Below, piece after piece: positions 1,287 through 15,760 of a stretch of DNA of 21,623 bases; position 1 is the first letter of the stretch, and the number at the start of each line of letters is the position of its first letter. This stretch comes from a virus. Below the pieces are notes generated by a model. The model had not been told where the DNA came from. It was given only the letters and a program-made list of their open reading frames with translations, and ran no database searches. Made by a program: the position numbers and the translations under genes. The stretch is from positions 1-21,623 of IMG/VR virus record IMGVR_UViG_3300031999_000223, one strand, 5' to 3'.

Positions 1287-4200
1287 GCAGGTAATACTTG
1301 ATTTGCTTTGCTGTTTACAGCTACTTTATCTTTACCTACTGTGCTTCTGCGTTTTTTCTGTACTCTGTCCATCATGGCGTACAACTGACGTGCGCCAGCT
1401 TCTGTAGAGCCGTTACCTAACTCAGAAACTATGCGTGCGGGAATAACAAACTCACCATCAGCAAGACGGGCAGGCTGGTGGTTACCAATGGAAGCTGGGA
1501 TAGAATCACTAACACCATCGCCGGGACCTTTAAGCAGTCGTCCACCATCTGAGTAATCTCCTAAGTGATAGCCCCCGCCGGCGTAACCACCCATAGCCAT
1601 ACCTTTAGCTCTGTTTTGTGCGTCTAATAATGCTTGTGCTTCTGGGGTTAAAGGTGTGGTTCCTATCGGGTTATACGCGGTTGGTACACCAAAAGTTATG
1701 CCAGATTGAAGTGCAGGTGCTTTATCTGCAACTTGTTGAAACACTCCTGTTGTACCTAGACGATTCAAAATATCTTGGTATGGCAACGCGCCTTCTTTTT
1801 CAAGCGAGTTGTATGTTGTTGGTTGTGTAAACGAGTAACCGCCTGTGCCTGTTGGAGTTAATTTGGCTTGTTGTTGCAAACTAGCTATTCCTGATGTATC
1901 AATTTTGTTGTAGTCAGCAATCAACGCGTCTTTCTGTGCTTGTGTTAACGGTTGAAAACTTGATGTTCCGGCAGTTTTTGTTTCAAATTTGGGAGTTGTG
2001 TCTAAAGTTTTTGTTTCAAACCCGGGCGTTACATTCTGCGTCATCTTGGCAGCATACTCAGGCGACGCTTTTAACTGCGCTACAATTTTAGATATAGACG
2101 ACCCCGTGCCTAACGCTGCTTGTAGTTGCTCTGCCGTTGGGGCTTTACCAAGCACTGATTGGTACGCAGACGATATTTGTTCTTGCGACGCAGGGACTTC
2201 AGTTGCTATTTGCGCAGCAGATTGGTCTTTGCTAAACGCTGCTTGGTTGATCTTGTTTAAGTTTGCTAAATACTGTGGGTTGTTTTGCATTGCGTTACGC
2301 AAGGCATTAAACGTAGTAAATTTATTAGCGGGGTCTTTGAAGTATTCCAGTTCTTCTGGTTTTAAATCACGACCCCAATAGTATTTAGCTTGAGCGTTTA
2401 AATCATCGTCACTAAACTTAGCCGCCATGTTTAATTCAGCCAAACCAGTTTTTTTGTTGGTTATAGCGTTAAACACATCTTGGTCTGAAAAGTTTTTGCC
2501 GTAGCCAAACTGTTTTAATTCTGTTTTTGTAGGCGAACGGCCTGTAAGTTCTTCAAAAATTTGACGAACATTTTCTTCGCCTTGAATTTTCTTTGTAGTG
2601 TCGTATGTTGGTGCGCCTTTAAGTTCTTGGAACGACTTAGTAGTGTCTGTTTCAAACTTGCCCGTTTCCGCGTTATATTTCTGCGGTGCTAATTTAGCAG
2701 CTTTAAGTGACGCTTTTAACCCTGTTAATTCTTGTTGTTGGGCTGGGGTAAGCATTTTTTGGTTGCCCAGCGGACTAGTTCCTGCCGGGTTGCTTTCAAT
2801 TGCGGAAATTTGCGCTTGTAAAGTTGCAGCGCTTTCATTAACAGGCGTAGACGTGTACTGCCCACGAGCAGTTACGCCGCTGGTAGTGCGTTTAGTTGAC
2901 TCTTCCCAATCTGATTTTTCAGTACCCAAATTAGTTTTATACGTGTCGTATGCGTTTTTAGCCGTATCGTACGTACTTTTTGCATTAGTAATTTTTGTTT
3001 GGTTTGCTTTATCAACTGCGTCATACGCATCAAAAGCCGACTTGTACGCCTTTGCGTTAGCAACATCCTTTTGTGCTTTACCTAAATCAGTAGTAATTCT
3101 TCCTTTTTCTGATTTTGGGGCGCTTCTAAGTTCTTTTGTTAAATCGCCAACCCTTTGTGACGCATCCCCAAGGTTAATGTCTTTGTATTGCTCAACTTTG
3201 CCCAAAGCTGTTTTAAGCTTTCCGGTATTTTTATCTATCGCAGGTTCTTTGTACGCCGCCGGTTCTTTGACAACAGGCAACTTAGATTTAAAACCAACGG
3301 AGCCGCCGGGGGCAAACGAAAGCAACGATGTAATACCGCCTTTTGCCATGCCAGTATACGAACCTACGGCAGCATCTGTTGCTGGGTAAATGACGTTTTG
3401 TGATATTGGGCGTTCTGCCGGCATTGCGTAGGTTGGCGTTGTTTGGCTTGCCATTGGATAGCGCATGTTACCTCCCACCGAATTCATCTGTGACATTTGC
3501 TCAACCGTACCACCTTCTTGTGGGCCGGGAACCATACCGCCATCAGCGGCAAAATATGTGCGCTCACCTGAACTACCCGCAGCAATAGGCGATGTTTTCA
3601 AACCGCTGTAAACAGAAGGGTATTGTTGGAATCTAAACTCTTCTTCTTTTTTCTTTTTCTCTTTTTCTCTTTCTTCAGGATTCATTAACGCGCTAGCCGC
3701 CGATGTAAACAAATCCATTTTGTTATTTTTTAAGAACTCTAGCCCAGCCCCGCCTTCGTTTGTAAAAATGTTTTTAAGACCAGAACCTGTTTGAGCAAAC
3801 TTGTCGCCTATGCCGCTTAACACGCTAGGTGCAGCATTTTGGCCTACTACTGCGGGGTTAGTTAATGCATTAGTAACGGCTGGGCTGTTAGCTAATTGCC
3901 CGGGTACTGTTGCGGTTACTTGAGGTATTGCGCCTGTCATTGTTGTACCGCCTGTTTGTGCTGCTTGATTAAAGGCAGCGCCGGGAGCAAAAGCAGGATT
4001 AACTGCGTTAGCTGCCAAAGTAGACTGAGGCACCGCAGCCGCAGCCGTACTAGCACCCATAATTCCCGGAGCCATACCAGCGCCACTAAACGCGCCCAAA
4101 CCTGCCATCAAACCTTTTTTCAAACTGCCGGTCATAACACCTGTTCCAGCACCCACCATCATTGCAGCCGCAGGAGCACCAACACCTGTAGCTGCTAGCG

Positions 4201-4402
4201 CAGCACCAATAATGGTAGGTAGCAAGTTAGACAAAAAGCCTGCCTCTGGCAGACCTGTTTCTGGGTTGATGGTTAGTGAACCGCCATGTGCCATAGCCAG
4301 TTGTTGCAAACCAGCTACCTCTTTTGGGTTCATGTGAACAAGCATGGAGTCGCCGCCGCGACCGGTGGATTGCATCTGGTTGGCTAGGTTTTGCAGGCTC
4401 AT
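1283..4402 (-). CDS. Large virion protein with DUF4214-like repeats, putative internal/ejection protein
   Basis: This is a 1039-residue protein with ATG at 4402 and AAAGGTG before it. The N-terminus carries HMNPKEVAGLQQLAMAHGG (23-41) and GLPEAGFL, then a Gly/Ala-rich hydrophobic stretch (about 59-120) that could interact with membrane. A highly charged EKEKKKKEEE segment lies near 245, and a helical Lys/Ala/Tyr-rich part at about 445-495. Three DUF4214-like units follow at about 612-790, recognisable by LTGRSPTKTEL, YYWGRDLKPEEL with NPQYLANL, and YQSVLGKAPTAEQL with SPEYAAKM. The C-terminus (about 958-1012) has GPGDGVSDSIPA, ARLADGEFVIPA and GNGSTEAGARQLYAMMDRV, a motif set remembered from many aquatic podovirus virion proteins. 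Its size and place before the GNAT-like and Gln-rich genes suggest a protein ejected with the DNA or lining the neck. The exact role is unknown. Confidence 0.8.
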   Translation of the reverse strand: MSLQNLANQMQSTGRGGDSMLVHMNPKEVAGLQQLAMAHGGSLTINPETGLPEAGFLSNLLPTIIGAALAATGVGAPAAAMMVGAGTGVMTGSLKKGLMAGLGAFSGAGMAPGIMGASTAAAAVPQSTLAANAVNPAFAPGAAFNQAAQTGGTTMTGAIPQVTATVPGQLANSPAVTNALTNPAVVGQNAAPSVLSGIGDKFAQTGSGLKNIFTNEGGAGLEFLKNNKMDLFTSAASALMNPEEREKEKKKKEEEFRFQQYPSVYSGLKTSPIAAGSSGERTYFAADGGMVPGPQEGGTVEQMSQMNSVGGNMRYPMASQTTPTYAMPAERPISQNVIYPATDAAVGSYTGMAKGGITSLLSFAPGGSVGFKSKLPVVKEPAAYKEPAIDKNTGKLKTALGKVEQYKDINLGDASQRVGDLTKELRSAPKSEKGRITTDLGKAQKDVANAKAYKSAFDAYDAVDKANQTKITNAKSTYDTAKNAYDTYKTNLGTEKSDWEESTKRTTSGVTARGQYTSTPVNESAATLQAQISAIESNPAGTSPLGNQKMLTPAQQQELTGLKASLKAAKLAPQKYNAETGKFETDTTKSFQELKGAPTYDTTKKIQGEENVRQIFEELTGRSPTKTELKQFGYGKNFSDQDVFNAITNKKTGLAELNMAAKFSDDDLNAQAKYYWGRDLKPEELEYFKDPANKFTTFNALRNAMQNNPQYLANLNKINQAAFSKDQSAAQIATEVPASQEQISSAYQSVLGKAPTAEQLQAALGTGSSISKIVAQLKASPEYAAKMTQNVTPGFETKTLDTTPKFETKTAGTSSFQPLTQAQKDALIADYNKIDTSGIASLQQQAKLTPTGTGGYSFTQPTTYNSLEKEGALPYQDILNRLGTTGVFQQVADKAPALQSGITFGVPTAYNPIGTTPLTPEAQALLDAQNRAKGMAMGGYAGGGYHLGDYSDGGRLLKGPGDGVSDSIPASIGNHQPARLADGEFVIPARIVSELGNGSTEAGARQLYAMMDRVQKKRRSTVGKDKVAVNSKANQVLPA

Positions 4403-4427
4403 AACGCACCTTTAGAAAATTTTGTCA

Positions 4428-4456
4428 ATAGTATCATGTGGGTAACGCCGAAACAA
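4428..4456 (-). promoter_or_regulatory. Candidate sigma70-like promoter before the 1039-residue gene
   Basis: On the minus strand TTGTTT (4456-4451) and TACTAT (4433-4428) are separated by 17 bases. The -10 is preceded by TGA, matching an extended -10 (TGn). It lies over the end of the C1q-like gene and a 31-base gap, so a transcript would begin about 20 bases before ATG 4402. Only three of six -35 positions match, so this could be chance. Confidence 0.22.
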
Positions 4457-5102
4457 AGGTAACTGTAGTCACCACAGACTGTGTTGCAGGTTTGGTTGGG
4501 CTGCCAGACGCAGCGTAAAAAGGTATGGTCACAGTATTCTGTGTGGCTGACCAGTGAATAGACACATTGTCTCTAGCGTTCATACTTAAAAAGTAGTTCC
4601 ACCCTTTAATATCATGCGAGGGGTCGCCGGGGTTTTTCCTAGCTACTAAACCCACTACACCAGTAGAACCGGGAATATTAACGCCGTTTTGTTTAAGCCA
4701 GATATACACATCTTCCGGCTGATTTGCAGAGTTTTCTAACTGCGCACTAAATTGCAAGTTGTATATCCCAGCATACTCAACAGTAATGTTTGACGAATTC
4801 AACGTGACGTTGCTTGTAAAATCCGTCGTGTTCATTGTCATCAATGTTGCTGTATTTGCAGTTGTTGTTTGTGTAAGGTTGCTTGAAAACGCCCCATAAG
4901 GAACGCGCAAGTTAGACGTAACAACGGAAGCATTGGCGTTTAGCTGTCCTACAAAATTATCCAGCGTGTTGAAATACAAACGTAAAATGCTGTTAAGTTG
5001 GTCTGCGTACTGGCGACTGTACTCCGTCGGCGCAACAGGCAATGCTGGCGCTTTAGTTCGTGTAAGTAAAAGCGAATCCGTTGTAACAATCTGTGTTGTC
5101 AT
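4434..5102 (-). CDS. C1q/TNF-like jelly-roll fibre-tip protein
   Basis: This is a 222-residue protein whose ATG at 5102 overlaps the stop of the 711-residue tail gene as ATGA. The N-terminal part has Ala/Pro-rich sequence, then a helix (YSRQYADQLNSILRLYFNTL, about 28-47) that could trimerise the protein. Residues 68-222 look like a C1q/TNF-like jelly roll: PYGAFSSN at the first strand, an NTTDFTSNV strand, YAGIYNLQFSAQLEN (about 110-124), DVYIWLKQNGVNIPGS, WNYFLSMNARDNVSIHW, and a final TVTFVSALPT strand. This order and spacing match phage C1q-like proteins known from tail appendages and capsid decorations. The likely role is a trimeric receptor-binding or surface domain on the tail, encoded beside the tail protein it may attach to. 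The fold call rests on pattern memory only. Confidence 0.75.
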   Translation of the reverse strand: MTTQIVTTDSLLLTRTKAPALPVAPTEYSRQYADQLNSILRLYFNTLDNFVGQLNANASVVTSNLRVPYGAFSSNLTQTTTANTATLMTMNTTDFTSNVTLNSSNITVEYAGIYNLQFSAQLENSANQPEDVYIWLKQNGVNIPGSTGVVGLVARKNPGDPSHDIKGWNYFLSMNARDNVSIHWSATQNTVTIPFYAASGSPTKPATQSVVTTVTFVSALPT

Positions 5103-7234
5103 CTGCGTCCGTCGCTGCGTACGTCAATACGAGGCACACCTAACTGCCACTGTGTCCCCAACGTATCTGAACTTATTTTTAACGCCATCTGACGACCGCG
5201 TACGCGTGTGTACACAATCTGCGTAAATTCCTGCACGTTGTAGTTTCTTTGATTTGCGTAGGATTGCGTAGACGCAACTGTTGGCGTGTCAGCTAGGCTG
5301 TAAGGAGCGCCGGGGTTTTGTCTTGGCCTTACCGTAAATACAGCCGATGGTTTGTCGGGTATTGGATTGCTTGAACCGTCAAAGGTAATGTCAGGAATAA
5401 TACGCCACACAAAACCATAGTTATGCCCATCACCAATGTCAAAGTCCGATGATTGAATGTATGAATTGATAGGTAGCGTAGTGCCGTTGACTTCAATATC
5501 ATCATTTCCGCTTTCATGGTACACAACAGTGTTTTGGTACGTTGCGCCCATAGGGTAGTTACGTAGGGGGCTATCTAGCCACGCGCTACGGTTTAAAGAG
5601 CCGTAGTACCAAACTTTATCCAAGTAGTTAAATATAACGTAACGGTCAACAGTAGTACTGTTAGCTGAACAGTAGTACCACCATATTTCGCTGTAACCCT
5701 CGTTACTGCCACAGAACACCTGATAGTTTTGCTCCAAATTAATGTCGCCGTACACGTACTGCCGCAAGGCACAAGGCAGCGTTTCTACGCGGCCTGAATA
5801 GACGTAGAACTTATCTAACCCCATCCAATACACAATGTTGTTTGCCGCGCCAACAGCGTTGGGACCCATGACAGAAATATTGTTTGAGAGGATGTTAAAG
5901 CCCCAGACGTACGGTGGTCCTAAGTACTGCATGGAATACACCGCTGCATCCGTCAAAACAACAATCTCTTGCCGTGATTGAATTGCTGTAACGATGGATG
6001 AGCCGCTAGATAGCCTGTAGCTACCTGCCTGATTAGTGATAGCGGGTGTCCACGTTTGGTAGCTTTCCTGATCTGACCAGCGAATTAACATCGGGTCTTG
6101 CAACGTAGAACCGTAATCGTTTGCACCAAACGCAATCACAAAACGGGACGCATCTGAAACAAGAATTTGTGCCACAACGCTTGGGCAGCCTGCATCTGTA
6201 TCGTACACACCAGAACTATTAGGCGAAAGCAATTCAGCTCGGTTAGTAAACTGAAGAACATTCGCTCCAGAATACTGCGGTATCCACAGGTATATAGGGC
6301 CGTTACGCGGGTTAATAAGTAAGTACTCACCAAAAGTGGCTTGTGACCACAGACGCAACTGCTCACCTAATCCTTGTGCAGAAGACTGCCCCCAACCTGT
6401 ATATGTGTTGGCGTTGTAAACAATTGTGCTGTTTGCGTGGGTTGTTGCTATTGTGCCGTTAGAGCCGCGTGTAGCTCCTGTAAACAGCGTTGCTGTATTG
6501 CCTGTGTAAGTAGCTAGTTCGCTGTCAATTAGCACCGTGCCGGTAGCATTTGAAAAACCTACCGTAGATACAACAGAAATGTTGGTGTTACTTGAATTAA
6601 GGGCAACTGACAAAAGTGTTTGCTGCGCACCCTGTACTCGTCCGCCCCACAAACCCGTACCCCAACCTGTTACGTAACTATACGTGGATAACCCTACGGT
6701 GATTTGATATGCCGCTGTAACTGTGCCGCCGCCAGTAGCGCTAGAAGTAGCAGGAGAAGAAGCTTGGATAGAATACGTATTAAAATCAATGTTCGTTATT
6801 TGGAACTCGCCGTTTAGCGTTAGGCCACCAACAGCCGTAGCCCCTGAGAACGTAACAAAGTCGCCAGTAATGCCAGCATATCCAACGTCTGTTACGGTTA
6901 CTGTGGTAGAGCCGTTAGTTGTAGTAAACGGGTTTGTTAGTACATCGGTTGCACGTATAGGCGTGATGTCGTTATAAACGCCACCGCTTTCAACGTAGTA
7001 CTTTAAGTTAGTGCCTACACCCAACAGGTTATAGCCTTGCAGCGTAACCCAGTTGATTAGCGCTCGTGCCGTGCCAAGATACGTGTTAGATGATATAGGT
7101 TGCCAGCCACCTAACTTTTGCGGATACCCTGAACGAAACCGGATTTTGTCGCCATCGTACCAACCGCCTTCATTGGCAAGCGTTGTGCCCTCGCGGTTGA
7201 TTCCCGGCCTAAACTGTAAGAGCTGTAATGGCAT
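5099..7234 (-). CDS. P22 gp10-like tail/packaged-DNA stabilisation protein (putative tail hub)
   Basis: This is a 711-residue protein, ATG at 7234 preceded by AGGTGGG. The N-terminus has FRPGINREGTTLANEGGWYDG and KIRFRSGYPQKLGGW (about 8-44), the signature of a family annotated in podoviruses as structural, stabilisation or tail protein. Two inserted beta modules follow. One is at about 102-178 (TTTNGSTTVTVTDV, FVTFSGATAVGGLTLNGEF). The other is at about 205-273, where SSNTNISVVSTVGF, SELATYTGN and TGATRGSNGT resemble a domain reused in many phage tail proteins. The second half is Trp/Tyr-rich and beta-predicted, with WSDQESYQTWTPAI and WYYGSLNRSAW. The family is thought to form the tail tube or nozzle below the adaptor and to keep packaged DNA in the head. 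That role is inferred from family and position after the lysis genes. Confidence 0.78.
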   Translation of the reverse strand: MPLQLLQFRPGINREGTTLANEGGWYDGDKIRFRSGYPQKLGGWQPISSNTYLGTARALINWVTLQGYNLLGVGTNLKYYVESGGVYNDITPIRATDVLTNPFTTTNGSTTVTVTDVGYAGITGDFVTFSGATAVGGLTLNGEFQITNIDFNTYSIQASSPATSSATGGGTVTAAYQITVGLSTYSYVTGWGTGLWGGRVQGAQQTLLSVALNSSNTNISVVSTVGFSNATGTVLIDSELATYTGNTATLFTGATRGSNGTIATTHANSTIVYNANTYTGWGQSSAQGLGEQLRLWSQATFGEYLLINPRNGPIYLWIPQYSGANVLQFTNRAELLSPNSSGVYDTDAGCPSVVAQILVSDASRFVIAFGANDYGSTLQDPMLIRWSDQESYQTWTPAITNQAGSYRLSSGSSIVTAIQSRQEIVVLTDAAVYSMQYLGPPYVWGFNILSNNISVMGPNAVGAANNIVYWMGLDKFYVYSGRVETLPCALRQYVYGDINLEQNYQVFCGSNEGYSEIWWYYCSANSTTVDRYVIFNYLDKVWYYGSLNRSAWLDSPLRNYPMGATYQNTVVYHESGNDDIEVNGTTLPINSYIQSSDFDIGDGHNYGFVWRIIPDITFDGSSNPIPDKPSAVFTVRPRQNPGAPYSLADTPTVASTQSYANQRNYNVQEFTQIVYTRVRGRQMALKISSDTLGTQWQLGVPRIDVRSDGRR

Positions 7235-7236
7235 TT

Positions 7237-7716
7237 TTACCCACCTAGGTACAAAGCGCGTTCATCTTTACGGCGGTTCTCAAGCCCTCTTAGGACTTTG
7301 CCACCGGCTTTGCAATACTTTAAAAATTCTTCGGCAGCGCCATCGTAATCGCCCCGGTTATGTTTCTGTCGCAGTGTGCTGCGCTGCAAAGTTCCTAAGC
7401 CTACATTGAAGGAAAAACTGACCAAACTATCCAGCCAAGCTTGGCGGCTACCAGCAGTAGGACAATATTTAAGAACTCCGCGCTCAAAACGCTCAAGGTC
7501 TTTAGCAAGTATGGCATCCACTTCTTCCATTGTAAATGTTCGGTTCCACCCTGCTGGGCAAGGCAAACCTACCCTGTCTTCAATTTTCAGCTTGCCGTGG
7601 TTTGGGTCAATCACATGCCCAACACCTATCGTCCACAACTTAGCAGGGCACCGGTAAGGTTTAGTCCTTACCCCTTCGTGGTGGGCAATCATTTTGAGAG
7701 CCTTGGGGCTTATCAT
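7237..7716 (-). CDS. Endolysin, GH24 (T4-type) lysozyme
   Basis: This 159-residue protein hydrolyses the beta-1,4 bond between MurNAc and GlcNAc in peptidoglycan. The catalytic region is clear: HHEGVRTKPYRCPAKLWTIG places Glu14, Cys23 and Thr29 at the spacing of T4 lysozyme Glu11-Asp20-Thr26, followed by GVGH. The Asp position is Cys, a variant I recall from many phage GH24 enzymes (YxCPAGxxTIGYGH). Later family elements include SFSFNVGLGTLQRST (about 101-115) and GLENRRKDERALYL near the end. Length is usual for the family. There is no signal peptide or SAR sequence, so release should depend on the holin. ATG 7716 overlaps the holin stop as ATGA, so the two are probably translationally coupled. 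Confidence 0.93.
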   Translation of the reverse strand: MISPKALKMIAHHEGVRTKPYRCPAKLWTIGVGHVIDPNHGKLKIEDRVGLPCPAGWNRTFTMEEVDAILAKDLERFERGVLKYCPTAGSRQAWLDSLVSFSFNVGLGTLQRSTLRQKHNRGDYDGAAEEFLKYCKAGGKVLRGLENRRKDERALYLGG

Positions 7717-8228
7717 TTCCCAAACGCCCTGCCGCCAAAGTGAAACGCTATGATGCTGGCAAACAATGCTTGAGTCTCGTTATCCCAAAGCTGGTCAGCC
7801 AGCGCATTAAAATCCACGCCGCTAGTCAAACCTTTGTACGCCAACACACCGTCAATACCAACCAGTAGAAAAAAGAAACCGTAAGTAATTACAGGACGCA
7901 CACTAGCGCGTAGGTCTTTCATCCACTGGCTTGTACCTTCATTAAGGCTAGTGTCGTGGGCATAGATGGCACTCATCTCGGCTTGTTGTGCGCCAATCAA
8001 AATTTGACGGGTGTCTGCTTCTGTTTGCGTTTTTATTTCGTCAAGCTTAATGGCTTCAATCTGTTGCTGTGCTACGTAGCCTGCGGCTGCTAGTTGTAGC
8101 TCGCGCTCTGTTTGCATCTGAGCTAGTTTTAACTCGTGGCCTTTGTCAGCTTTGTCTTGAAAGAAATCCAATATCTTGGGCAGACCGCCCATCAAAAACG
8201 ATACAAGCGTTGAAAGTAGTGTCAGCAT
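7713..8228 (-). CDS. Holin, 3TM gene-transfer-agent-like family
   Basis: This is a 171-residue membrane protein, ATG at 8228 with GGAAGGG upstream and a TAATG overlap with the gene before it. The layout fits the family of holins with three transmembrane segments. There is an N-terminal hydrophobic helix (1-19), a long charged and Gln-rich cytoplasmic helix (about 25-95), then WMKDLRASVRPVITYGFFFL leading into a second segment (about 110-130). A short hydrophobic C-terminal segment (about 152-166) ends in FGGRAFGK. The RxSVRPxxTYxF motif at the second segment is the strongest recognition point. Encoded immediately before the lysozyme, it should form the inner-membrane lesion that lets the lysozyme reach the cell wall and sets lysis time. 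Confidence 0.83.
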   Translation of the reverse strand: MLTLLSTLVSFLMGGLPKILDFFQDKADKGHELKLAQMQTERELQLAAAGYVAQQQIEAIKLDEIKTQTEADTRQILIGAQQAEMSAIYAHDTSLNEGTSQWMKDLRASVRPVITYGFFFLLVGIDGVLAYKGLTSGVDFNALADQLWDNETQALFASIIAFHFGGRAFGK

Positions 8229-8755
8229 TATCTAACCCTTCCTTTTGTTTTACCTCGTTTAGCTATACCGTCTGCACGTTGGGAAGCAGTACGTACTTTA
8301 CCGCCTTTTTTATACTGCCCACCCTCACGTTCCATCCGTTCTTTTTTATGTTTGTCTATCATGGCTTTTGGATCAAATTCTGCGCCTAGCTGTAACTCTT
8401 TTCTATCCATTGAACCACCACCGCCTGACCCCCCACCAAGACTCCCACCCCGTATAGGTGACCATTTACCAGTTTTCCTATCATGTACTTCTAAACTATC
8501 AGCAGACACTGCTTTGTTTTCTTTAACATCTCCACGGGGAGCGCGTACTAAAGTAGCGTTTTCTGAATAGTTTGTGTTTGGGTGGTCAACAGCCGTCCAG
8601 TATTTTTTTTGGTTGCCGCTTTCTTTTGGTAACGCATACCCTTTTTCACGTATGTCTTTTATTTCATCTTCGCTTCTTATATATCGTTGAACATAAGCAG
8701 TATCAGTGGAGCGCCCGGGTAAAAATGGATGTACTTGATTTTTTGCTTTTGGCAT
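8228..8755 (-). CDS. Protein with possible ADP-ribosyltransferase-like N-terminus, Gly/Ser linker and basic DGIA/GKTKG tail
   Basis: This is a 175-residue protein, ATG at 8755 with GGGGGG upstream and a TAATG overlap at both ends. Three parts are visible. Residues 20-100 form a compact domain with RYIRSEDEIKDIREKGY, KKYWTAVD, TLVRAPRGD, and AVSADSLEVHDRKTGKWSPI. This order (an Arg strand, a K-Y-W-T strand, and a closing strand with SLEV and W) resembles small ART-fold or toxin-related domains, but I cannot confirm an R-S-E active site. Residues 101-116 are a GGSLGGGSGGGGS-type flexible linker. Residues 117-175 are basic and helical, ending in KKGGKVRTASQRADGIAKRG and then KTKGRVR. That last motif recurs in other small proteins here. 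It sits between the overlapping membrane genes and the holin. Function unknown; a toxin-like or virion-bound effector is possible. Confidence 0.75.
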   Translation of the reverse strand: MPKAKNQVHPFLPGRSTDTAYVQRYIRSEDEIKDIREKGYALPKESGNQKKYWTAVDHPNTNYSENATLVRAPRGDVKENKAVSADSLEVHDRKTGKWSPIRGGSLGGGSGGGGSMDRKELQLGAEFDPKAMIDKHKKERMEREGGQYKKGGKVRTASQRADGIAKRGKTKGRVR

Positions 8756-9048
8756 TATTCCCCCCGCATTTCCATTAGTATCTTTGCGCGTAGTTCACGC
8801 ATCTTCTTTACTTCTTGCATTGCTGCCGCAGTAGCGTTGTTCATGTCCATATACATGATGCCCATGATTGGCAGGGCTATGACTAACACAAGACACAAGA
8901 CCAAAACGGTGACGAGTAAACTCCACGGTATGTGTGGCTCGTTCGAATCAGTATCATTAGCCATAGGAACCATAACATTATGAACACGACCGCGATTATT
9001 GATGTCATCTGTTCCGCGATTTTTTTTCTTATACTTGCCCGTCGCCAT
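8755..9048 (-). CDS. Small single-pass membrane protein overlapping the preceding gene
   Basis: This is a 97-residue protein. The chosen ATG at 9048 has AGGCGG four bases upstream. Residues 1-40 are polar and basic (KYKKKNRG early). Residues 43-67 are a strong transmembrane helix (WSLLVTVLVLCLVLVIALPI). The tail (about 68-97) is helical and charged, with MQEVKKMRELRAKILMEMRG. The first 166 bases, coding the polar part and the start of the membrane helix, are also read in another frame as the end of the 203-residue gene. A later start at Met26 or Met29 is possible and would shorten the overlap. It has no lipobox, so it is not a classical Rz1, and its periplasmic tail is short for an Rz. A lysis-accessory role is only a guess from the nearby holin. 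Confidence 0.65.
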   Translation of the reverse strand: MATGKYKKKNRGTDDINNRGRVHNVMVPMANDTDSNEPHIPWSLLVTVLVLCLVLVIALPIMGIMYMDMNNATAAAMQEVKKMRELRAKILMEMRGE

Positions 9049-9494
9049 ACTGCCGCCTGTTGCTTTAGTAGTTCCTGACGCTGAACCTCTGCTCTTTCCG
9101 CTTTCACCCTGTCACGCATTGCTTCAAATTCTGACCAGATCGCACCCAACTCTTTTGGCGCTTGGTACACGAGCGTTTCACGTAATTCAGTTTCTAACCT
9201 ATTCATTTCCTTTACTGCCATGACTCTGTTAAACGCTTCTTGGTTTACCGACAACTCAGGGTCACGCGACTTCTTAATCTTTAACTCTTCTTCGTGTACG
9301 TGCTTCTCTAACTGCTCATGCGCTTTAAAGAAATTGCCAAGATGTCCGCTTAAATCTGCGACGACATCCTTGGCTTGCCCGTACACATCTACTAGCTCCA
9401 TCCCTTGTGCTTTGTACTCTTGGTACATCTCACAGCCTTTGCGTATTGCAGCGGCTGCGGTTTTTGCTGCGGCTAAGAGGGTGAGCGGATCCAA
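8883..9494 (-). CDS. Coiled-coil protein with C-terminal membrane anchor, TTG start
   Basis: This is a 203-residue protein. The only usable early start in this frame is TTG at 9494, since an in-frame TGA lies five codons upstream. A GAGG lies about 10 bases before it. The start DPLTLLAAAKTAAAAIRKGC resembles N-termini I recall from a family in aquatic podoviruses. Residues 55-150 are charged and helical (HEQLEKHVHEEELKIKK, EMNRLETELRETL, KAERAEVQRQELLKQQ), probably a coiled coil. Residues 165-183 form a membrane helix (SIIAVVFIMLWFLWLMILI) close to the end, and the tail ends in WSCVLC. It overlaps the previous gene by 22 bases and the next by 166 bases. The family is unassigned; it may be a virion or lysis-associated membrane protein. 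Confidence 0.72.
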   Translation of the reverse strand: MDPLTLLAAAKTAAAAIRKGCEMYQEYKAQGMELVDVYGQAKDVVADLSGHLGNFFKAHEQLEKHVHEEELKIKKSRDPELSVNQEAFNRVMAVKEMNRLETELRETLVYQAPKELGAIWSEFEAMRDRVKAERAEVQRQELLKQQAAVWRRASIRKKIAEQMTSIIAVVFIMLWFLWLMILIRTSHTYRGVYSSPFWSCVLC

Positions 9495-9841
9495 GATGTA
9501 GTAGCCTCATCCCATGTGTAAGGGCTTTCCATAGTGCCGTCTGTAGGCATAGGCGTAGGTGGTTGCCACTGAGCGTTAGCATCTAGCGTCCAGCTTGCAT
9601 GCGGCTGTGGAGCAGCAAACGCATCTATGTCTGCGTGGTATTTAAACCCAATACCTGCGTAGTTCTTACGCTTGTTGCCGTTGTAACTAGTCTGTTTCCA
9701 ATTGCCACCAAGAACGCGCTCGCAGAACGCAGCACCGATATGTTCTTTCTCAGTACCATAAACGTCAGCCGTGTCTTTGTTATCAACTACGATGACTTGG
9801 ATAACCACGTTGTTTGAATCAAGCTGGGCAAAATGTGCCAT
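9473..9841 (-). CDS. Conserved KNYAGIG-motif phage protein, function unknown
   Basis: This is a 122-residue protein, ATG at 9841 with AGGAGAAG upstream and a TAATG overlap with the oxygenase gene. The sequence MAHFAQLDSNNVVIQVIVVD, GTEKEHIGAAFC, GGNWKQTSYNG and KNYAGIGFKYHADIDAF (59-75) is the signature of a protein that I recall as very common in marine T4-like cyanophages and other aquatic phages. The second half has SWTLDANAQWQPPTPMPTDG and YTWDEATTSW, short Trp-rich repeats that look like a binding platform. It is usually found near tail-fibre genes. No enzymatic motif is seen. The biochemical role is unknown, but the family call is strong. Confidence 0.88.
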   Translation of the reverse strand: MAHFAQLDSNNVVIQVIVVDNKDTADVYGTEKEHIGAAFCERVLGGNWKQTSYNGNKRKNYAGIGFKYHADIDAFAAPQPHASWTLDANAQWQPPTPMPTDGTMESPYTWDEATTSWIRSPS

Positions 9842-10449
9842 TACTCTTCTCCTAAATGAAGTCCGGTCAGACTTTCGTCCGAACCAATGTACCCTTTTAC
9901 AAAGGTGTTAAACGAAATACTGATACGAGTTCCATCGCCCTGCTTGGTTTGAACCATGTGTGTCAAATCGGACGGGAAGATAATTAAGTCCCCAGCCCCT
10001 GTTTCAAACCACCAGCTATCGCTGTTCCACGCATTAAAGTTTTCTGATGGAATCTTGATACGCTCGTAACCATCTTTGTAAAAATAAATTCTGTCTGTTT
10101 CTCTGTTTGCCTGCGGGTAGAACACACCAGAGATAATACTGTTGGGGTGAGCATGTTTGTGATGATACTGACCCGGCTCTGTGTAGTTAGACCACGACTG
10201 CGTTATGTACGGTGTTACATCAAACTTAGGCGCATGGACTGATTTAAAATACTCCAGCATCGCGGTTTCAATAAACTCACGAATCTCTGTCATCTCAACA
10301 GACTGCAACAGCTTTCTGTTTTCGCTAGTGGTATTGCCTTCGTTGGGGTAACGCACCTGACCAATAATAAAATCCAGCTCTTGCTGGGTAAGGTCACGGT
10401 CTAACTTAGAAAAACCTACCGCTGTAGGAAACAGATTGGTTATGTTCAT
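9841..10449 (-). CDS. Putative 2OG-Fe(II) oxygenase
   Basis: This is a 202-residue protein, ATG at 10449 with AGGGCGG upstream and an ATGA overlap with the preceding gene. The N-terminus LFPTAVGFSKLD is typical of the TIGR02466-like phage oxygenase family. The iron and 2-oxoglutarate sites are visible: YHHKHAHPNSIISGVFYPQ (95-113, with His99 and His101 near the metal site), the distal GAGDLIIFPSDLTHMV with His164, and Arg175 in GTRISISFN for 2-oxoglutarate binding. Such enzymes couple decarboxylation of 2-oxoglutarate to hydroxylation of a protein, nucleobase or small molecule. The substrate is unknown. Its place among fibre genes, after the glycine-rich adhesins and the small LRPGA protein, makes a virion or host-surface target worth considering, though cyanophages carry many such genes without known function. 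Confidence 0.88.
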   Translation of the reverse strand: MNITNLFPTAVGFSKLDRDLTQQELDFIIGQVRYPNEGNTTSENRKLLQSVEMTEIREFIETAMLEYFKSVHAPKFDVTPYITQSWSNYTEPGQYHHKHAHPNSIISGVFYPQANRETDRIYFYKDGYERIKIPSENFNAWNSDSWWFETGAGDLIIFPSDLTHMVQTKQGDGTRISISFNTFVKGYIGSDESLTGLHLGEE

Positions 10450-10700
10450 GCAACCGCCCTGTCGTATATCTCTTGCTGACCACGCATTTTGTCTATCTGC
10501 TCCTGAGTCCAGATTGTATTGATGCTGTCCTCAAACTCTTTTATCTTTTCCATTGTATCCAGCACTTCATCCATAGTCGGACACGGGCGTGGGTCTTCCC
10601 AGCGTGTAAACATGGTGTTGCTGATCTCCCACTTAGCGCCGGGGCGCAGTAAGTGCATAGCTGTGTCAATACCGTAGAGTTGATAAATTTTTGTGTCCAT
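10446..10700 (-). CDS. Small LRPGA-motif protein of fibre clusters, function unknown
   Basis: This is an 84-residue protein with ATG at 10700, six bases after the stop of the glycine-rich fibre gene and without a clear Shine-Dalgarno site. It reads MDTKIYQLYGIDTAMHLLRP, GAKWEISNTMFTRWEDPRPC and PTMDEVLDTMEKIKEFEDSI. The LRPxAxW...W.d...PT..E pattern resembles small proteins encoded next to tail-fibre genes, including XkdW-like proteins, which may assist fibre assembly. The C-terminal half is helical and charged. It overlaps the oxygenase start by four bases. A fibre-assembly chaperone role is inferred from gene order only. Confidence 0.72.
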   Translation of the reverse strand: MDTKIYQLYGIDTAMHLLRPGAKWEISNTMFTRWEDPRPCPTMDEVLDTMEKIKEFEDSINTIWTQEQIDKMRGQQEIYDRAVA

Positions 10701-10706
10701 AAATAT

Positions 10707-12437
10707 TTAGTTGTTTAGTTTAAGAATAACGATGCCTGAGCCGCCTGCACCCCCATCGCTAGCATAACCTGCTGGAGCATTTGGATAAGCCCCTCCACCA
10801 CCGCCACCACCTAAATTATTTGTTCCGTTAAACCCAGCTACAGAAATGCTAGTACCACCAGCCCCACCGCCCCCTGCACCACTTAAACCTGCGTTAGAAG
10901 CAAACGGGCCATACGCACTTCCTCCGCCTCCACCACCTCCAGCATACGTTACAGATACACCTGTAATAGATGAGGCTGTACCAGCTCCGCCGGGGCCTGA
11001 TTGGCTACCTGATCCTGCTGTACCAGCCGCAGTTGCGCCGCCACCTCCTCCTGTTGGGTAAGGAGATGAACTTTGGTTATTACCTCCAGCATTACCTTGG
11101 CTTGGAGTTGTGGCAGGAGTATTTCCAGCGCCACCTGCTTTACCGCCACCAGAGTGACCACCACCGCCGCCAGAACCACCACTAAGACCGGCATTTTCAG
11201 TACCACCTGTATTGATACCACCACCACCACCGCCACCATTGGATGTTATGGTGCTAAAGGTTGAATTTCCACCGTTTACACCGTTAACTAAAGGCCCAGA
11301 CGCGCCAGCACCACCAGCTCCAACAGTTATCGTATATGTAGTGCCTACGGTTACAGCAAGTGCCGTTCCTGTTCTAAACCCCCCAGCGCCACCACCTCCA
11401 CCAGACCTTCCCCCACCAGCTCCACCAGCAACTACAAGATAATCAACGCTTTTAACACCGGCAGGAGCAGTCCAAGTAGAAGTGCCGCCAAAAGTAAGTA
11501 CGCCTGTAGTGGGAGCTACGTATCTGATGATGACTATACCGCTGCCGCCATTAGCACCGTTTCCATTAGGATTATTTCCACCACCACCACCACCGCCACC
11601 TGTGTTTGCTGTACCAGCAGTTCCATCTCCATTACCACCAGCACCGCCACCACCAGCACCACCCGCGCCAAAAGAATTAAGTAAACGATAAGCATCTGCC
11701 CCGCCACCTCCACCACCAGCATAAGTAACAGATGCTCCAGTAATAGTAGATGCCGTACCAGCCCCGCCGTTACCAGACTTTGCAGGGCCGGGTGAGGTTC
11801 CAACAGCCGCACCACCAACAGCACTAGCACCACCACCTCCGCCAGTACCGTAAGGGTCACCACTACCACTACCACCACTACCTATTTTTCCTAAACCACC
11901 ATTATTACCTTGCGATGGGCTTGTTGACGGTGTGTTTCCCGCCCCTACTGGGCCGTTATATCCAGCACCACCGCCAGAACCGCCAGAACCAGCAGCAACA
12001 TAGCCCGGAGCGCCAGTATCGGATGCACCGCCACCACCGCCTGCTGTAGCAATAGACCCAAATAAAGAAAGACTTCCATTTAACCCCGGATTAGCAGAAC
12101 CAGCACCGCCAGAGCCAACAGTTACAGCATACGTAGTCCCCGGCACAACAGTAAATACCGTGCCAGTTAAAAATCCACCTGCTCCACCGCCTCCAGCTAA
12201 ACCACCAGCGCCACCACCACCACCAGCCACTACCAGATAATCCACCTGCGTAACACCATTAGGTGCAGTCCAAGAGCCGGAAGCAGTAAAGCTGGTAGTA
12301 ACAGTCGAACCTATACCGGGCCACACGCCTGATTGAATAGCTTGCAAAGCCTGTTGCAGCGTCCAGATACCTGATGCCTGCGTCGTGGTTATCGTCGCAT
12401 TGCCTTTTGAAATAATCCGTCCGGGATAATTACTCAT
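10707..12437 (-). CDS. Glycine-rich tail fibre/adhesin, two-module, downstream copy
   Basis: This is a 576-residue protein, ATG at 12437 with AAGGTGA upstream. The short N-terminus (MSNYPGRIISKG, ASGIWTLQQAL) is shared in pattern with the upstream fibre and resembles attachment ends of phage fibres. Two long glycine-rich modules follow (about 46-305 and 311-576). Each opens with an SWTAPNGV or TWTAPAGV strand, then VDYLVVAGGGG and a GTTYxxTVGxGGAG segment, then GNTPSTSPSQGN or GNTPATTPSQGN. Each closes through VTYAGGGGGGG with GSGIVIIRY or GSGIVILKL. Runs of Gly suggest polyglycine type II helix sandwiches, as known in the gp38 adhesin of phage S16, here a likely receptor-binding surface. The + strand over the gene is strongly C-rich (Pro-rich shadow frames) as a result. 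Confidence 0.85.
   Translation of the reverse strand: MSNYPGRIISKGNATITTTQASGIWTLQQALQAIQSGVWPGIGSTVTTSFTASGSWTAPNGVTQVDYLVVAGGGGGAGGLAGGGGAGGFLTGTVFTVVPGTTYAVTVGSGGAGSANPGLNGSLSLFGSIATAGGGGGASDTGAPGYVAAGSGGSGGGAGYNGPVGAGNTPSTSPSQGNNGGLGKIGSGGSGSGDPYGTGGGGGASAVGGAAVGTSPGPAKSGNGGAGTASTITGASVTYAGGGGGGADAYRLLNSFGAGGAGGGGAGGNGDGTAGTANTGGGGGGGGNNPNGNGANGGSGIVIIRYVAPTTGVLTFGGTSTWTAPAGVKSVDYLVVAGGAGGGRSGGGGGAGGFRTGTALAVTVGTTYTITVGAGGAGASGPLVNGVNGGNSTFSTITSNGGGGGGGINTGGTENAGLSGGSGGGGGHSGGGKAGGAGNTPATTPSQGNAGGNNQSSSPYPTGGGGGATAAGTAGSGSQSGPGGAGTASSITGVSVTYAGGGGGGGSAYGPFASNAGLSGAGGGGAGGTSISVAGFNGTNNLGGGGGGGAYPNAPAGYASDGGAGGSGIVILKLNN
10710..11505 (-). repeat. Glycine-rich module copy 4 (C-terminal half of downstream fibre)
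   Basis: One of four copies of an approximately 255-265-residue module. It runs from TFGGTSTWTAPAGV to GSGIVILKL. Internal landmarks are VDYLVVAGGAGGG, GNTPATTPSQGN and VTYAGGGGGGG. Confidence 0.8.
11521..12302 (-). repeat. Glycine-rich module copy 3 (N-terminal half of downstream fibre)
   Basis: Same landmarks as the other copies: SGSWTAPNGV, VDYLVVAGGGGG, GNTPSTSPSQGN, VTYAGGGGGGA and GSGIVIIRY. Confidence 0.8.
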
Positions 12438-12445
12438 CGTTCACC

Positions 12446-14098
12446 TTACGAATATAGTCTTAGAATAACTATGCCTGAACCGCCTGTCGCGCCAGCATAA
12501 GTTGCTCCGCCAGAACCAGAACCACCGCCTCCACCACCTGTGTTTGCTGTGCCAGCAGTTCCAGCAGCATTAGCACCGCCATTACCACCGCCACCCAATC
12601 CTCCTGTACCAGCAATGCCTACACTTGGGTATGAGCCTGCCCCACCACCTCCACCTCCTGCATACATTACTGATGTACCAGAAAGAACGGAAGACATCCC
12701 AATGCCACCATTTCCGGCTATTGTAGATGTTCCACTTGCCCCAACTGCACCAGCTCCGCCACCACCGGCTGCACCATAAGAAGGCGCAGAAGATGAACCT
12801 GTGCCGCCATTATTACCTTGGCTTGGAGAAGTAGATGGTGTGTTTCCTGAACCTCCGGCAACTGTTCCTCCGCCAGCACCTCTTCCGCCGCCACCTGAAC
12901 CGCCATTAGCTCCGTTAGCTGCAACATTATTACCACCGCCATATCCACCACCGTTAGATGTAACGGTAAGAAAAGTAGAGTTTCCGCCGTTTGTATTTGC
13001 TGGCCCACCAGACCCCACAGTAATTGTAGATGTGTTGCCTGAAGTTACGGCAAATCCAGTTCCCATGCGAAAACCACCAGCACCGCCACCACCACCTACA
13101 TCATTACCATTATTTCCTGTTCCACCACCACCACCGCCAGCAACTACCAAGTAGTCAACATTAGAAACATTGTTTGGCATTGTGTAGGTAGTAGTCGCAT
13201 TAAACGTAACTACAGTAACTTGGTTAGGGACTGTGTATCTAAGGATGACTATGCCTGAACCGCCTGCGCCGCCTGATGTTGTAGCAGGAGCACCAGTGCC
13301 GCCACCACCACCGCCCGTGTTTACAGTTCCGTCATTTCCATTGCCAGTGTTAACACCAGAACCTCCGCCTGATGTTCCTAATCCACCAGAACCACTGCCA
13401 CCTCCTTGACCACCACCTCCACCACCTCCAGCATAATAAAACCCAAAACCTGAAATAGATGATGCAAGACCAGAGCCACCAGCACCGCCATTATTTGCTG
13501 CGCCAGAAAAAGTTGTTCCTGTACCACCAGCACCACCACCTCCACCAGCTCCTGTTCCACCGCCAGTAGTTGCGCCACCGCCAGAATTTCCTTGGCTTGG
13601 AGAAACGCTAGGAGTATTTCCAGCACCGCCGCCAGAACCTGCCCATCCACCTCCACCACCTGAACCTCCAGCTCCACCTCCAGAGCCTTGAGGTGCCCCA
13701 TAACCACCACCGTTAGAAGTGATAGTAGAAAAAGTAGAATTTGAACCAACAATTCCGTTAGAAGCACCAGAGCTTCCAGCTCCACCAGACCCAACAGTTA
13801 TCGTATAAGAAGTTCCGGGCGTAACAGCTAATGCAGTGCCGGTTCTAAAACCACCAGCACCTCCGCCTCCAGAGCCTCCGTTATTGGGGGCAGTAGAACC
13901 TCCAGCACCACCACCGCCAGCTACAACTAAGTAATCTACAGATGTAACGCCAGCAGGACACACCCACGTATCCGTAGAAGTAAACATCTGCACAACTGTG
14001 CCAGACCTGTAAAGCTTGTTAAACGTCCAAATACCTGAGCCATACGCCGCTGGTGCGGTAGCACTCATTATCTGACCGGGATAACCATGAATTGCCAT
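12446..14098 (-). CDS. Glycine-rich tail fibre/adhesin, two-module, upstream copy
   Basis: This is a 550-residue protein, ATG at 14098 with AAGGGG upstream, eight bases before the second glycine-rich gene. The N-terminus HGYPGQIMSA...GSGIWTFNKLY matches the YPGxIxS...SGIWT pattern of its neighbour. Two modules follow: residues about 36-288 (TWVCPAGVTSVDYLVVAGGG, GTSYTITVGSGGAG, GNTPSVSPSQGN, FYYAGGGGGGG, SGIVILRYTV) and about 293-550 (TYTMPNNVSNVDYLVVAGGG, GNTSTITVGSGG, GNTPSTSPSQGN, VMYAGGGGGGA, GSGIVILRLYS). The opening strands differ while the SPSQGN and closing strands are conserved, as expected if exposed loops vary for receptor choice. It is a probable receptor-binding protein or fibre shaft, with a paralogue directly downstream that may share or exchange modules. 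Confidence 0.85.
   Translation of the reverse strand: MAIHGYPGQIMSATAPAAYGSGIWTFNKLYRSGTVVQMFTSTDTWVCPAGVTSVDYLVVAGGGGAGGSTAPNNGGSGGGGAGGFRTGTALAVTPGTSYTITVGSGGAGSSGASNGIVGSNSTFSTITSNGGGYGAPQGSGGGAGGSGGGGGWAGSGGGAGNTPSVSPSQGNSGGGATTGGGTGAGGGGGAGGTGTTFSGAANNGGAGGSGLASSISGFGFYYAGGGGGGGQGGGSGSGGLGTSGGGSGVNTGNGNDGTVNTGGGGGGTGAPATTSGGAGGSGIVILRYTVPNQVTVVTFNATTTYTMPNNVSNVDYLVVAGGGGGGTGNNGNDVGGGGGAGGFRMGTGFAVTSGNTSTITVGSGGPANTNGGNSTFLTVTSNGGGYGGGNNVAANGANGGSGGGGRGAGGGTVAGGSGNTPSTSPSQGNNGGTGSSSAPSYGAAGGGGAGAVGASGTSTIAGNGGIGMSSVLSGTSVMYAGGGGGGAGSYPSVGIAGTGGLGGGGNGGANAAGTAGTANTGGGGGGSGSGGATYAGATGGSGIVILRLYS
12449..13222 (-). repeat. Glycine-rich module copy 2 (C-terminal half of upstream fibre)
   Basis: Landmarks are TYTMPNNVSNVDYLVVAGGG, GNTPSTSPSQGN, VMYAGGGGGGA and GSGIVILRL. 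The opening strand is the most divergent of the four (TMPNNV in place of TAPAGV). Confidence 0.8.
13237..13993 (-). repeat. Glycine-rich module copy 1 (N-terminal half of upstream fibre)
   Basis: Landmarks are TDTWVCPAGVTSVDYLVV, GTSYTITVGSGGAG, GNTPSVSPSQGN, FYYAGGGGGGG and SGIVILRYTV. Confidence 0.8.
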
Positions 14099-14107
14099 AG
14101 CAACCCC

Positions 14108-14506
14108 TTAGTTAATCTGTTCGTAACTGACTGAGAATGTAATCGCGCTGTTCGTTCCAGACTGAACTACGATTGCATTGTTTTCCAAAATGTACGTCGC
14201 CGTAGTTTTGTCCATCACAATCAGAGAAGCATACGCCGGAACTGAAATGTTCGACGCAACCGCAAACGCATTTGCAGAGCTAGTCACAACTAAGTTACCT
14301 GATGTCACCGCGCCGCTGGTATACAGCAGAACCGTTGCGTTAGCAGCAGTGTTAGACGTATTTGCAGCAACCACTTGGTTAACTTTAAATACGTTAGAAG
14401 AACCACTAGTATTTGCAATCAATACCAGCGTAGACGTATTCGCAGGAGTCAAAAAGTTTGTCTGACCGTAAATCTGCGCTACGTTGACTATATTAGGATT
14501 TGCCAT
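14108..14506 (-). CDS. Beta-rich virion/fibre-associated protein, function unknown
   Basis: This is a 132-residue protein, ATG at 14506 with AAGGAG eight bases upstream. It is dominated by Ala, Ser, Thr, Asn and Val, with alternating strand-like segments: NFLTPANTSTLVLIANTSGS, VFKVNQVVAAN, SNISVPAYASLIVMDKTTAT and SAITFSVSYEQIN. The composition and strand pattern fit a small beta-sandwich of the virion. It lies between a fibre protein and the first glycine-rich fibre, so a fibre base or connector is plausible. I recall similar proteins from aquatic phages without assigned function. No catalytic motif is present. Confidence 0.75.
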   Translation of the reverse strand: MANPNIVNVAQIYGQTNFLTPANTSTLVLIANTSGSSNVFKVNQVVAANTSNTAANATVLLYTSGAVTSGNLVVTSSANAFAVASNISVPAYASLIVMDKTTATYILENNAIVVQSGTNSAITFSVSYEQIN

Positions 14507-14518
14507 TTAAATAACTCC

Positions 14519-15202
14519 TTAGAATCCAAAAACAATTGCGAGGGCGATAGATTTACCTGCCGAAATACCAGATGAAGCTTGGCTTACCCAAGTGGTTCCG
14601 TTACTTGTTAATACGTTGCCGCTAGTACCTGGCGCAACAAAATTTACCGCTGATGTGCCATTACCAAGCAATACATTATTTGCTGTTAACGTAGCTCTAC
14701 CAGTACCGCCTTCATTTGCATCTAAGGCGTTAGTTAAAACAAGATTAGCTAGCGTTAAATTACCAACTTGCAGGTCTGTATGGTAGTTGATAGTTTCCGC
14801 AATATTGGCACCGTCGTTATAAATCATCACCGTTTTATTAGCGGGGATGCTGACAGTTGTACCAGTAGCTGCACCATTTGCACCGTTAGAAATAATGACT
14901 GTATTAGCTAGTCCATTATTTACTATGTATTGTTTGCTGATAGCAGGCACATACAAGTAAGGCGACGTAGTAATTGTCCCAACTAAGTTTAGCCGTAGGC
15001 CACGAGCCGCTTGGAACGTGTTGTTCTGCGCAATCGTAATTGCCGTGTTGGTAGCACTCGTCATTGTGACGTTAGCAGTTCCGACAATCGCTTGTTCGAT
15101 TGTTGTGCCAAGGTTGGTATTCGTTGTATTGCCCCACGTACCGGCTTGGTCACCAGTGCCGATAAGCTCAATAGCTAGGTTGCCACTGTATGTACTTGCC
15201 AT
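14519..15202 (-). CDS. Tail fibre-like protein (ELIGTGDQAGTWG family)
   Basis: This is a 227-residue protein, ATG at 15202 with AAGGAAG upstream. The N-terminus MASTYSGNLAIELIGTGDQA, then GTWGNTTNTNLGTTIEQAIV, is a well-known opening of phage tail-fibre proteins that attach to the virion. The middle has beta strands and VSIPANKTVMIYNDGANIAE (about 116-135), a segment repeated in many such fibres. The C-terminal part (about 160-227) has NEGGTGRATLTANNVLLGNG and GNVLTSNGTTWVS, the GGTG...LLGNGT pattern of phage fibre shafts. The ending GISAGKSIALAIVFGF is unusual in being hydrophobic. It likely forms part of the fibre together with the next genes. No chaperone or peptidase domain is seen. Confidence 0.85.
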   Translation of the reverse strand: MASTYSGNLAIELIGTGDQAGTWGNTTNTNLGTTIEQAIVGTANVTMTSATNTAITIAQNNTFQAARGLRLNLVGTITTSPYLYVPAISKQYIVNNGLANTVIISNGANGAATGTTVSIPANKTVMIYNDGANIAETINYHTDLQVGNLTLANLVLTNALDANEGGTGRATLTANNVLLGNGTSAVNFVAPGTSGNVLTSNGTTWVSQASSGISAGKSIALAIVFGF

Positions 15203-15211
15203 GATTCTTCC

Positions 15212-15760
15212 TTACTGATTAGTGTTTATGAAGGACCAATTTTCAGTAGTCCCGGTATCAATTAGTTCCCATAAACGTCGTCTGCTTACACTATCTGAAG
15301 CTACTGCGGTATCTGTGACCACCGACTTAAAACTACCGCCAGCAGCAGGAGCATCTTCTACGTTCACTGTATCTTCAACACCAATGTTATATACGGAGCT
15401 ACCACCAAAACTAACGTCGTCTTGTGCAACGGCGGATTCTTCTATACGTTCTGTAAAATTACCACCCCCCAGAACTGTATCAATAAGTGCTGCTGTTTCT
15501 TCTAAAGATATATAGAACGTAGCATTTGCTCTAAAAGAATCTGTTAAAACTAAAGACTCTGCAACGCTTACACCAAAAACAGTCGTTGTACTAAAAGTAT
15601 CAGTTACTTGTACCGTGTCTGAAAAAATAGAACCAAAAGCGGCACCGCCATTTACGGTATCTGAAGCAGCTACTGTATCGTCAATAGTCCTCTCATAAGC
15701 GGACAAGCCCCATCCAGACTGTCCCCAACCTCCTGAACTCCACCCGCTTATGTCCGCCAC
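15212..15760 (-). CDS. Virion protein built of seven 20-residue repeats
   Basis: This is a 182-residue protein with a GTG start at 15760, supported by TAGGAG six bases upstream. The N-terminus ISGWSSGGWGQSGWGLSAY is a Gly/Trp/Ser patch seen in other phage structural proteins. Residues 25-166 hold seven tandem units of 20 to 22 residues with the pattern xV/I-x-D/E-T/S-xxxx-D-T/S-V/F-xxxxx-F. Examples are SVAESLVLTDSF, RIEESAVAQDDV and GVEDTVNVEDAP. After the last unit comes RRRLWELIDTG and ENWSFINTNQ, a W..I..x..W motif known at C-termini of such proteins. The repeats suggest a beta-solenoid or fibrous shaft, strongly acidic overall. The role in the tail appendage is inferred from position. 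Confidence 0.8.
   Translation of the reverse strand: MADISGWSSGGWGQSGWGLSAYERTIDDTVAASDTVNGGAAFGSIFSDTVQVTDTFSTTTVFGVSVAESLVLTDSFRANATFYISLEETAALIDTVLGGGNFTERIEESAVAQDDVSFGGSSVYNIGVEDTVNVEDAPAAGGSFKSVVTDTAVASDSVSRRRLWELIDTGTTENWSFINTNQ
15263..15688 (-). repeat. Seven tandem 20-22-residue protein repeats
   Basis: Units start near residues 25, 45, 65, 85, 105, 126 and 147. Each has an acidic D/E-T/S pair, an Asp four to five residues on, and an aromatic residue near the end. DNA identity between units is low, so the repeat is old or selected at the protein level. Confidence 0.75.

Follow-up and report, generated by a model that had tools for sequence, protein, structure and literature searches.

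Paired glycine-rich fibre genes with slot-specific module frames and apparently exchanged tips in a group of short-tailed phages

Two adjacent genes of an aquatic phage, in a 21.6 kb IMG/VR virus record, a fragment that we refer to in its entirety as the window, most likely encode fibres that bind receptors, with frames that are fixed and tips that can be exchanged. As the best explanation overall we consider it probable that they represent paired tail receptor-binding fibres whose frames are inherited and whose tips recombine. A more specific version, to which we give an even chance, is a four-slot array in which frame and anchor are fixed per slot and the tips circulate between slots, genes and viruses; each virus would then be one combination of up to four tip types from a population-wide pool.

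The late structural genes of a short-tailed-type phage, including an endolysin and small tail proteins, are located on the minus strand of the window. In this fragment the two fibre genes adjoin a 132-aa protein, each other, an 84-aa protein and a 2OG oxygenase. We denote the modules of the upstream gene as slots F1 and F2, those of the downstream gene as S1 and S2, and those of a single-gene architecture found in relatives as X. The features are as follows:

5099-7234, minus strand: protein whose relatives are annotated as 'stabilization' protein
9473..9841, minus strand: phrog_7759 protein, downstream of the fibre genes
9841..10449, minus strand: 2OG-Fe(II) oxygenase (PF13759), downstream of the fibre genes
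10446..10700, minus strand: conserved 84-aa protein (phrog_21526), immediately downstream of gene A
10707..12437, minus strand: gene A, the downstream (S) fibre gene, 576 aa, two Gly_rich_2 modules
10710..11516, minus strand: module A2 (slot S2), gene A residues 308-576
11517..12305, minus strand: module A1 (slot S1), gene A residues 45-307
11745..12041, minus strand: glycine-rich tip of module A1, residues 133-231, common to module X1 of locus L006
12306..12437, minus strand: S-type N-terminal anchor (MSNYPGRII..SGIWTLQQALQAIQSGVWPGI), gene A residues 1-44, with a predicted short helix
12446..14098, minus strand: gene B, the upstream (F) fibre gene, 550 aa, two Gly_rich_2 modules
12449..13231, minus strand: module B2 (slot F2), gene B residues 290-550
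13232..13999, minus strand: module B1 (slot F1), gene B residues 34-289
14000..14098, minus strand: F-type N-terminal anchor (MAIHGYPGQI..SGIWTF), gene B residues 1-33, low model confidence (pLDDT about 40)
14108..14506, minus strand: 132-aa protein adjoining F/S pairs
14519..15202, minus strand: 227-aa upstream tail protein (phrog_31104), marker of the fibre locus in relatives

Genes A and B are separated by 8 nt, and both open reading frames were confirmed with the ends given in the original prediction (576 and 550 aa, minus strand). Pfam entry PF21722 (Gly_rich_2) matched two stretches per protein with 154 and 161 bits (cut-off 24.3), and each of the four genomic places in genes A and B scored above the curated cut-off. 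By score, all four modules are members of Gly_rich_2 (PF21722) / phrog_2295. They are 256–269 aa long, within a few residues of the previously estimated 255–265, and contain 35–40% glycine. Pairwise they are 56.5–61.6% identical, or 47–55% over glycine-free columns. Since their local alignment scores lie 23–30 s.d. above composition-preserving shuffles, the similarity reflects homology and not glycine bias. The shared landmarks described earlier are present with small variations, namely GNTP(S/A)(T/V)(S/T)PSQGN, YAGGGGGG(G/A) and SGIVI(L/I)(R/K)(Y/L), and the YPGxI...SGIWT pattern at both N-termini is real.

AlphaFold2 models of the monomers, for which 39 and 34 sequences from the window and the loci were aligned, reached a mean pLDDT of 85.5 (gene B) and 82.3 (gene A). 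The N-termini preceding the modules comprise about 33 and 44 residues; pLDDT values below 50 are found there, in the first 25–30 residues and in residues 33–42 of gene A, and gene A has one short helix in this region. A Foldseek search with the gene B model matched the tail fibre of cyanophage Pam3 (E 4.7e-6) and the tail tip of mycobacteriophage Bxb1. Superposition with the Pam3 fibre (PDB-entry 7YPX) gave Z 17.7 and 2.1 Å over 184 residues, and that with the Bxb1 tail-tip protein (PDB-entry 9D93) gave Z 16.3 over 188 residues; the glycine-rich domains of ALK/LTK followed with Z 7–9. The original prediction had suggested structure prediction for polyglycine sandwiches; the models predict a TNF-like jelly roll with a glycine-rich tip for each module, as in the two phage proteins matched. 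The glycine-rich tip on the jelly roll of the Pam3 fibre is the proposed receptor binder (PMC9608196). Mapping the variable loops over 125 modules yielded about nine high-entropy loops, variable in length and sequence, between near-invariant glycine runs. A PDB sequence search with a profile of the pair family gave no match, and single-sequence phmmer matched weakly. S16 gp38 was absent among the fold matches listed, which is no argument against a shared fold. Gene B found no match by tblastn in a phage collection, probably due to low-complexity masking, and this is not evidence of absence.

The Pam3 fibre gp24 (PDB-entries 7YFW and 7YPX; PMC9608196) shares with our predicted models the jelly roll, the glycine-rich domain with its glycine motifs and the variable distal loops. 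However, it has one module per chain, whereas here two modules per chain occur in two genes, and it docks to the baseplate by a long N-terminal helical bundle; the N-terminal anchors found here are short. Pam3 also has a dedicated chaperone, gp25, whereas no match to a Tfa-like or gp25-like fibre chaperone was recognised in the genes adjoining A and B; an unrecognised chaperone is possible. The Bxb1 protein has the same fold but is a mycobacteriophage tail-tip protein that aligned to one module only.

Five proteins served as queries against IMG/VR, namely those of genes A and B, the one at 5099-7234, and the 227-aa and 132-aa proteins; all retrieved loci (L numbers) were scanned with a module profile. 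Both genes, each with two modules and arranged as in the window, are complete in 22 other distinct contigs, a count that leaves out L192, a near-copy of L083. L005 and L120 hold a partial 2+2 pair. In L061 the first gene has one module and is directly followed by the second gene, giving a 1+2 arrangement. Two modules were found in 26 of 28 complete F genes and in all 25 S genes. The first-gene anchor always reads M(A/P)(I/L)HGYPG...; comparison of the N-termini of relatives showed this F-type anchor to be slot-specific and kept in all F genes. The second-gene anchor is different and likewise conserved, mostly MSxxYPG... with W(T/S)L(Q/N)QA further along. A third architecture is a single two-module gene (X), whose N-terminus is nearly always MF(A/S)Y(T/S)K. 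Because the complete pair recurs with conserved anchors and module numbers, two adjoining glycine-rich adhesins are normal in this phage group, and their description as unusual does not hold.

Some loci depart from these patterns. In L132 (3224-4126) the F gene ends in the inter-module linker near the contig end, indicating a broken gene or an assembly error. More distant loci (L258 at 1717-9075, L019 and L013) contain three to five close glycine-rich genes with one or two modules each. One-module relatives (L105, L154, L160, L145, L164 and L151) start near VDYLVVAGGG and end in a YTFTGNGTITF-like strand; this strand resembles the xTFTASGTWT that opens the window modules, and a circular permutation is possible.

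The upstream core genes are syntenic and 70–83% identical to those of the window in most relatives. The relatives vary in the segment that separates the 227-aa protein from the downstream genes, which contains a pair, a single gene, a one-module gene, a LamG lectin or another long protein. L133 (9192-11153) has a three-domain LamG lectin-like protein at this locus in place of glycine-rich genes, and L172 (4379-6475) a repetitive protein of 698 aa. Mapped on the core-gene tree, the architectures required 13 changes compared to a shuffled mean of 15.1 (27 of 200 shuffles as low), with L132 scored as one-module, where the F gene may be merely broken, and L061 (1+2) scored as a pair. The architecture of the fibre locus thus does not follow the core tree. 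Among ten related records of 55–67 kb, Gly_rich_2 modules are present in seven and absent in three. Because its content switches without tracking the core tree, the locus appears to behave like a host-recognition cassette. The 132-aa protein was not detected by tblastn in single-gene (X) loci with the exception of DSL-LC04, which is metagenome-assembled (PMC10611076); a role as partner or adaptor of the F/S pair could fit. Scans of the region for promoters, terminators, RNA families and tRNAs gave nothing useful.

We also weighed the idea that the glycine-rich proteins serve as capsid or tail decoration or as structural spacers. Neither the Pfam entry nor the best PHROG family of the modules has an annotated function, and we infer a role in adsorption, assembly as trimers, contact of the loops with the receptor and the location in the virion. 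The fold, however, matches a fibre and a tail tip, the loops are hypervariable and the locus alternates with LamG-type proteins, which makes decoration or spacing quite improbable.

Three further observations concern neighboring genes. The window open reading frames 8755-9048 and 8883-9494 (minus strand) overlap by 166 nt in different frames. They are probably a real overlapping gene pair, since L133 (11527-12072 / 11907-12200) and L172 (6500-7195 / 7030-7323) encode both proteins with an identical overlap. A relative of the 5099-7234 protein with 60% identity is encoded on L259, a contig assigned to a Verrucomicrobiota MAG; this could point to a host or reflect wrong binning of a virus. The protein at 15212-15760 (minus strand) contains repeated DTV..xDS-like units; its L172 homologue, at 306 aa, is far longer, which suggests that the number of repeats varies.

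For the comparison between slots, we divided each module into a frame (or framework), comprising the first ~90 residues, and the glycine-rich interior (the tip). A tree of 102 whole modules required 23 slot-label changes compared to 65.7 after shuffling. The frame tree required 18 (80.6 shuffled), whereas the interior tree, in which most forks are poorly supported, required 76 (80.3 shuffled; 15 of 200 shuffles as low). The same comparison was also made in an earlier FastTree version. Without columns of paired glycines, cross-genome frame identity is 0.574 in the same slot and 0.506 in different slots, and the corresponding interior values are 0.311 and 0.309; within genomes, identity is 0.519 for frames and 0.320 for interiors. 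Codon-column scans for near-identical DNA tracts found 144 of 145 frame tracts in the same slot. Interior tracts numbered only 11, and with near-copies of one strain set aside they correspond to about two or three independent same-slot and two cross-slot cases. Each slot therefore has its own framework lineage, and slot signal is nearly missing from the glycine-rich interior. Each gene, moreover, keeps its own N-terminal anchor.

These data bear on a separate acquisition of the four modules from other phages, for which the original prediction had named a closer relationship to foreign modules as the sign. Taken literally that sign is there, since the top identity of each window module is to a module of another virus. 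This does not mean separate acquisition, however, because the closest relatives of the framework are mostly in the same slot. In 46 loci the frameworks group by slot, and the conserved order of the genes, their anchors and their spacing are as expected of one ancestral array. We therefore reject independent entry of the modules as highly improbable; the part acquired or exchanged appears to be the glycine-rich interior.

Module identity within a genome (58.9%) is no higher than that between genomes in the same slot (61.0%), so the array is old and its duplications are ancient rather than recent. On the same grounds we rejected gene conversion or a recent duplication within the genome. A duplication of adhesin modules, as originally predicted, thus stands. 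The between-slot framework identities in the pair architecture do not discriminate its proposed order, module before gene, from the reverse: all are about 0.48–0.52, and F1 and S1 (0.52) are slightly closer than F1 and F2 (0.485).

Indications of tip exchange come from comparisons of individual viruses. Where core proteins are 96–97% identical, modules are only 0.56–0.69 identical, and anchors 0.71–0.97. L106 and L184 have flanks of 85–95% and S genes of 94.5% nucleotide identity; their S1 and S2 tips are 95–97% alike, whereas the F1 and F2 tips are at background level. L032_F1 and L114_S1, located in different genes of otherwise collinear genomes, have a common tip with an identical stretch of 75 nt. 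Residues 133-231 of window module A1 (about 99 residues) are 98% identical at the amino acid level to L006_X1 from a single-gene virus. The L006_X1 frame, in contrast, is closest to X1 frames (0.69–0.73), and the A1 frame is closest to S1 frames (0.59–0.81). With a dS of about 1 in the tip as well as in the frame, this exchange is old. The ratio dN/dS, a rough value with dS near saturation, is about 0.04 in the shared tip and 0.20–0.23 outside. The module number has also changed, in the one-module F gene of L061. The original prediction had suggested a search for gain, loss or swaps of modules and had seen a potential for recombination to vary receptor binding; recombination finds support in the tip replacement between L106 and L184 and in the cross-slot sharing.

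From this sharing and the low dN/dS of the shared tip we conclude with moderate confidence that tips appear to be distinct types, exchanged and then conserved, rather than segments under constant mutation. Clear independent cross-slot sharings number only two, and the tip evidence consists mostly of a missing signal, as would also result from fast divergence and from misalignment of low-complexity sequence. An ancient module and gene duplication followed by divergence in place, with the slot signal of the tips lost by fast mutation, would account for the poorly supported tip trees, mostly near saturation, and for the small number of close tip pairs. Yet the three cases above (L106/L184, L032_F1/L114_S1 and A1/L006_X1) require exchange, and one shared tip type is slow at the protein level (dN/dS 0.04–0.09), unlike a fast-mutating segment. 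We regard divergence in place as unlikely. Targeted mutagenesis, for instance through a diversity-generating retroelement, is suggested as a source of tip diversity by hypervariable loops in a probable adhesin, but conflicts with the length changes in most loops. No reverse transcriptase was found in the ten related records of 55–67 kb, with positive search controls, and we rejected this barely conceivable source for that reason.

Based on these results we propose the following for the paired fibres with inherited frames and recombining tips. In a short-tailed (podovirus-type) phage, the two genes would encode a pair of related, tail-associated fibres that bind receptors. Each chain would consist of its own short N-terminal anchor and two tandem modules. 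In each module a TNF-like jelly roll would carry stacked polyglycine stretches that present the nine or so variable loops of the tip. The four slots would predate the split of these viruses and have been passed down as frameworks. Tips would be replaced by recombination with a shared pool, across slots and across one-gene and two-gene architectures, and each tip type, once in place, would be kept by purifying selection. The virion would display up to four tip specificities. A plausible route is annealing at the conserved frames and glycine motifs. An ERF-type single-strand annealing recombinase is encoded in six of the ten near-genome-length records, including those of L032 and L114, and RecT is absent from the same ten.

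The domain, the fold and the hypervariability of the loops are of known kinds. What differs from Gly_rich_2 (PF21722) / phrog_2295 in general is the 2+2 slot array with slot-specific frames and, as we propose, exchanged tips. In gp38 of T-even phages (T2, S16 and PP01), hypervariable segments likewise lie between conserved glycine-rich motifs at the receptor-binding tip (PMC12529663, PMC12892980), but gp38 is one tip protein on the gp37 fibre with a beta-helix domain, not a set of tandem jelly-roll modules. Among the genes listed above as adjoining A and B in this fragment, none was seen to be a gp37. Domain shuffling in phage receptor-binding proteins is already known and involves recent exchange of receptor-binding segments behind conserved N-termini (PMC10684548). 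There, unrelated C-terminal domains are swapped, whereas here the exchange appears to occur within a homologous domain and also between paralogous slots. In the literature searched, which lay mostly outside subscription journals, no account was found of an array of four slots in which the frames are fixed and the tips circulate.

Little is known of how phages that infect uncultured bacteria of aquatic habitats change their host specificity. In the present case, a single homologous domain would split into a slot-fixed frame and a reassorting tip. The unit of exchange, its boundaries and the number of tip types would thereby become measurable from metagenomes, and defined protein fragments suited to receptor-binding tests would result.
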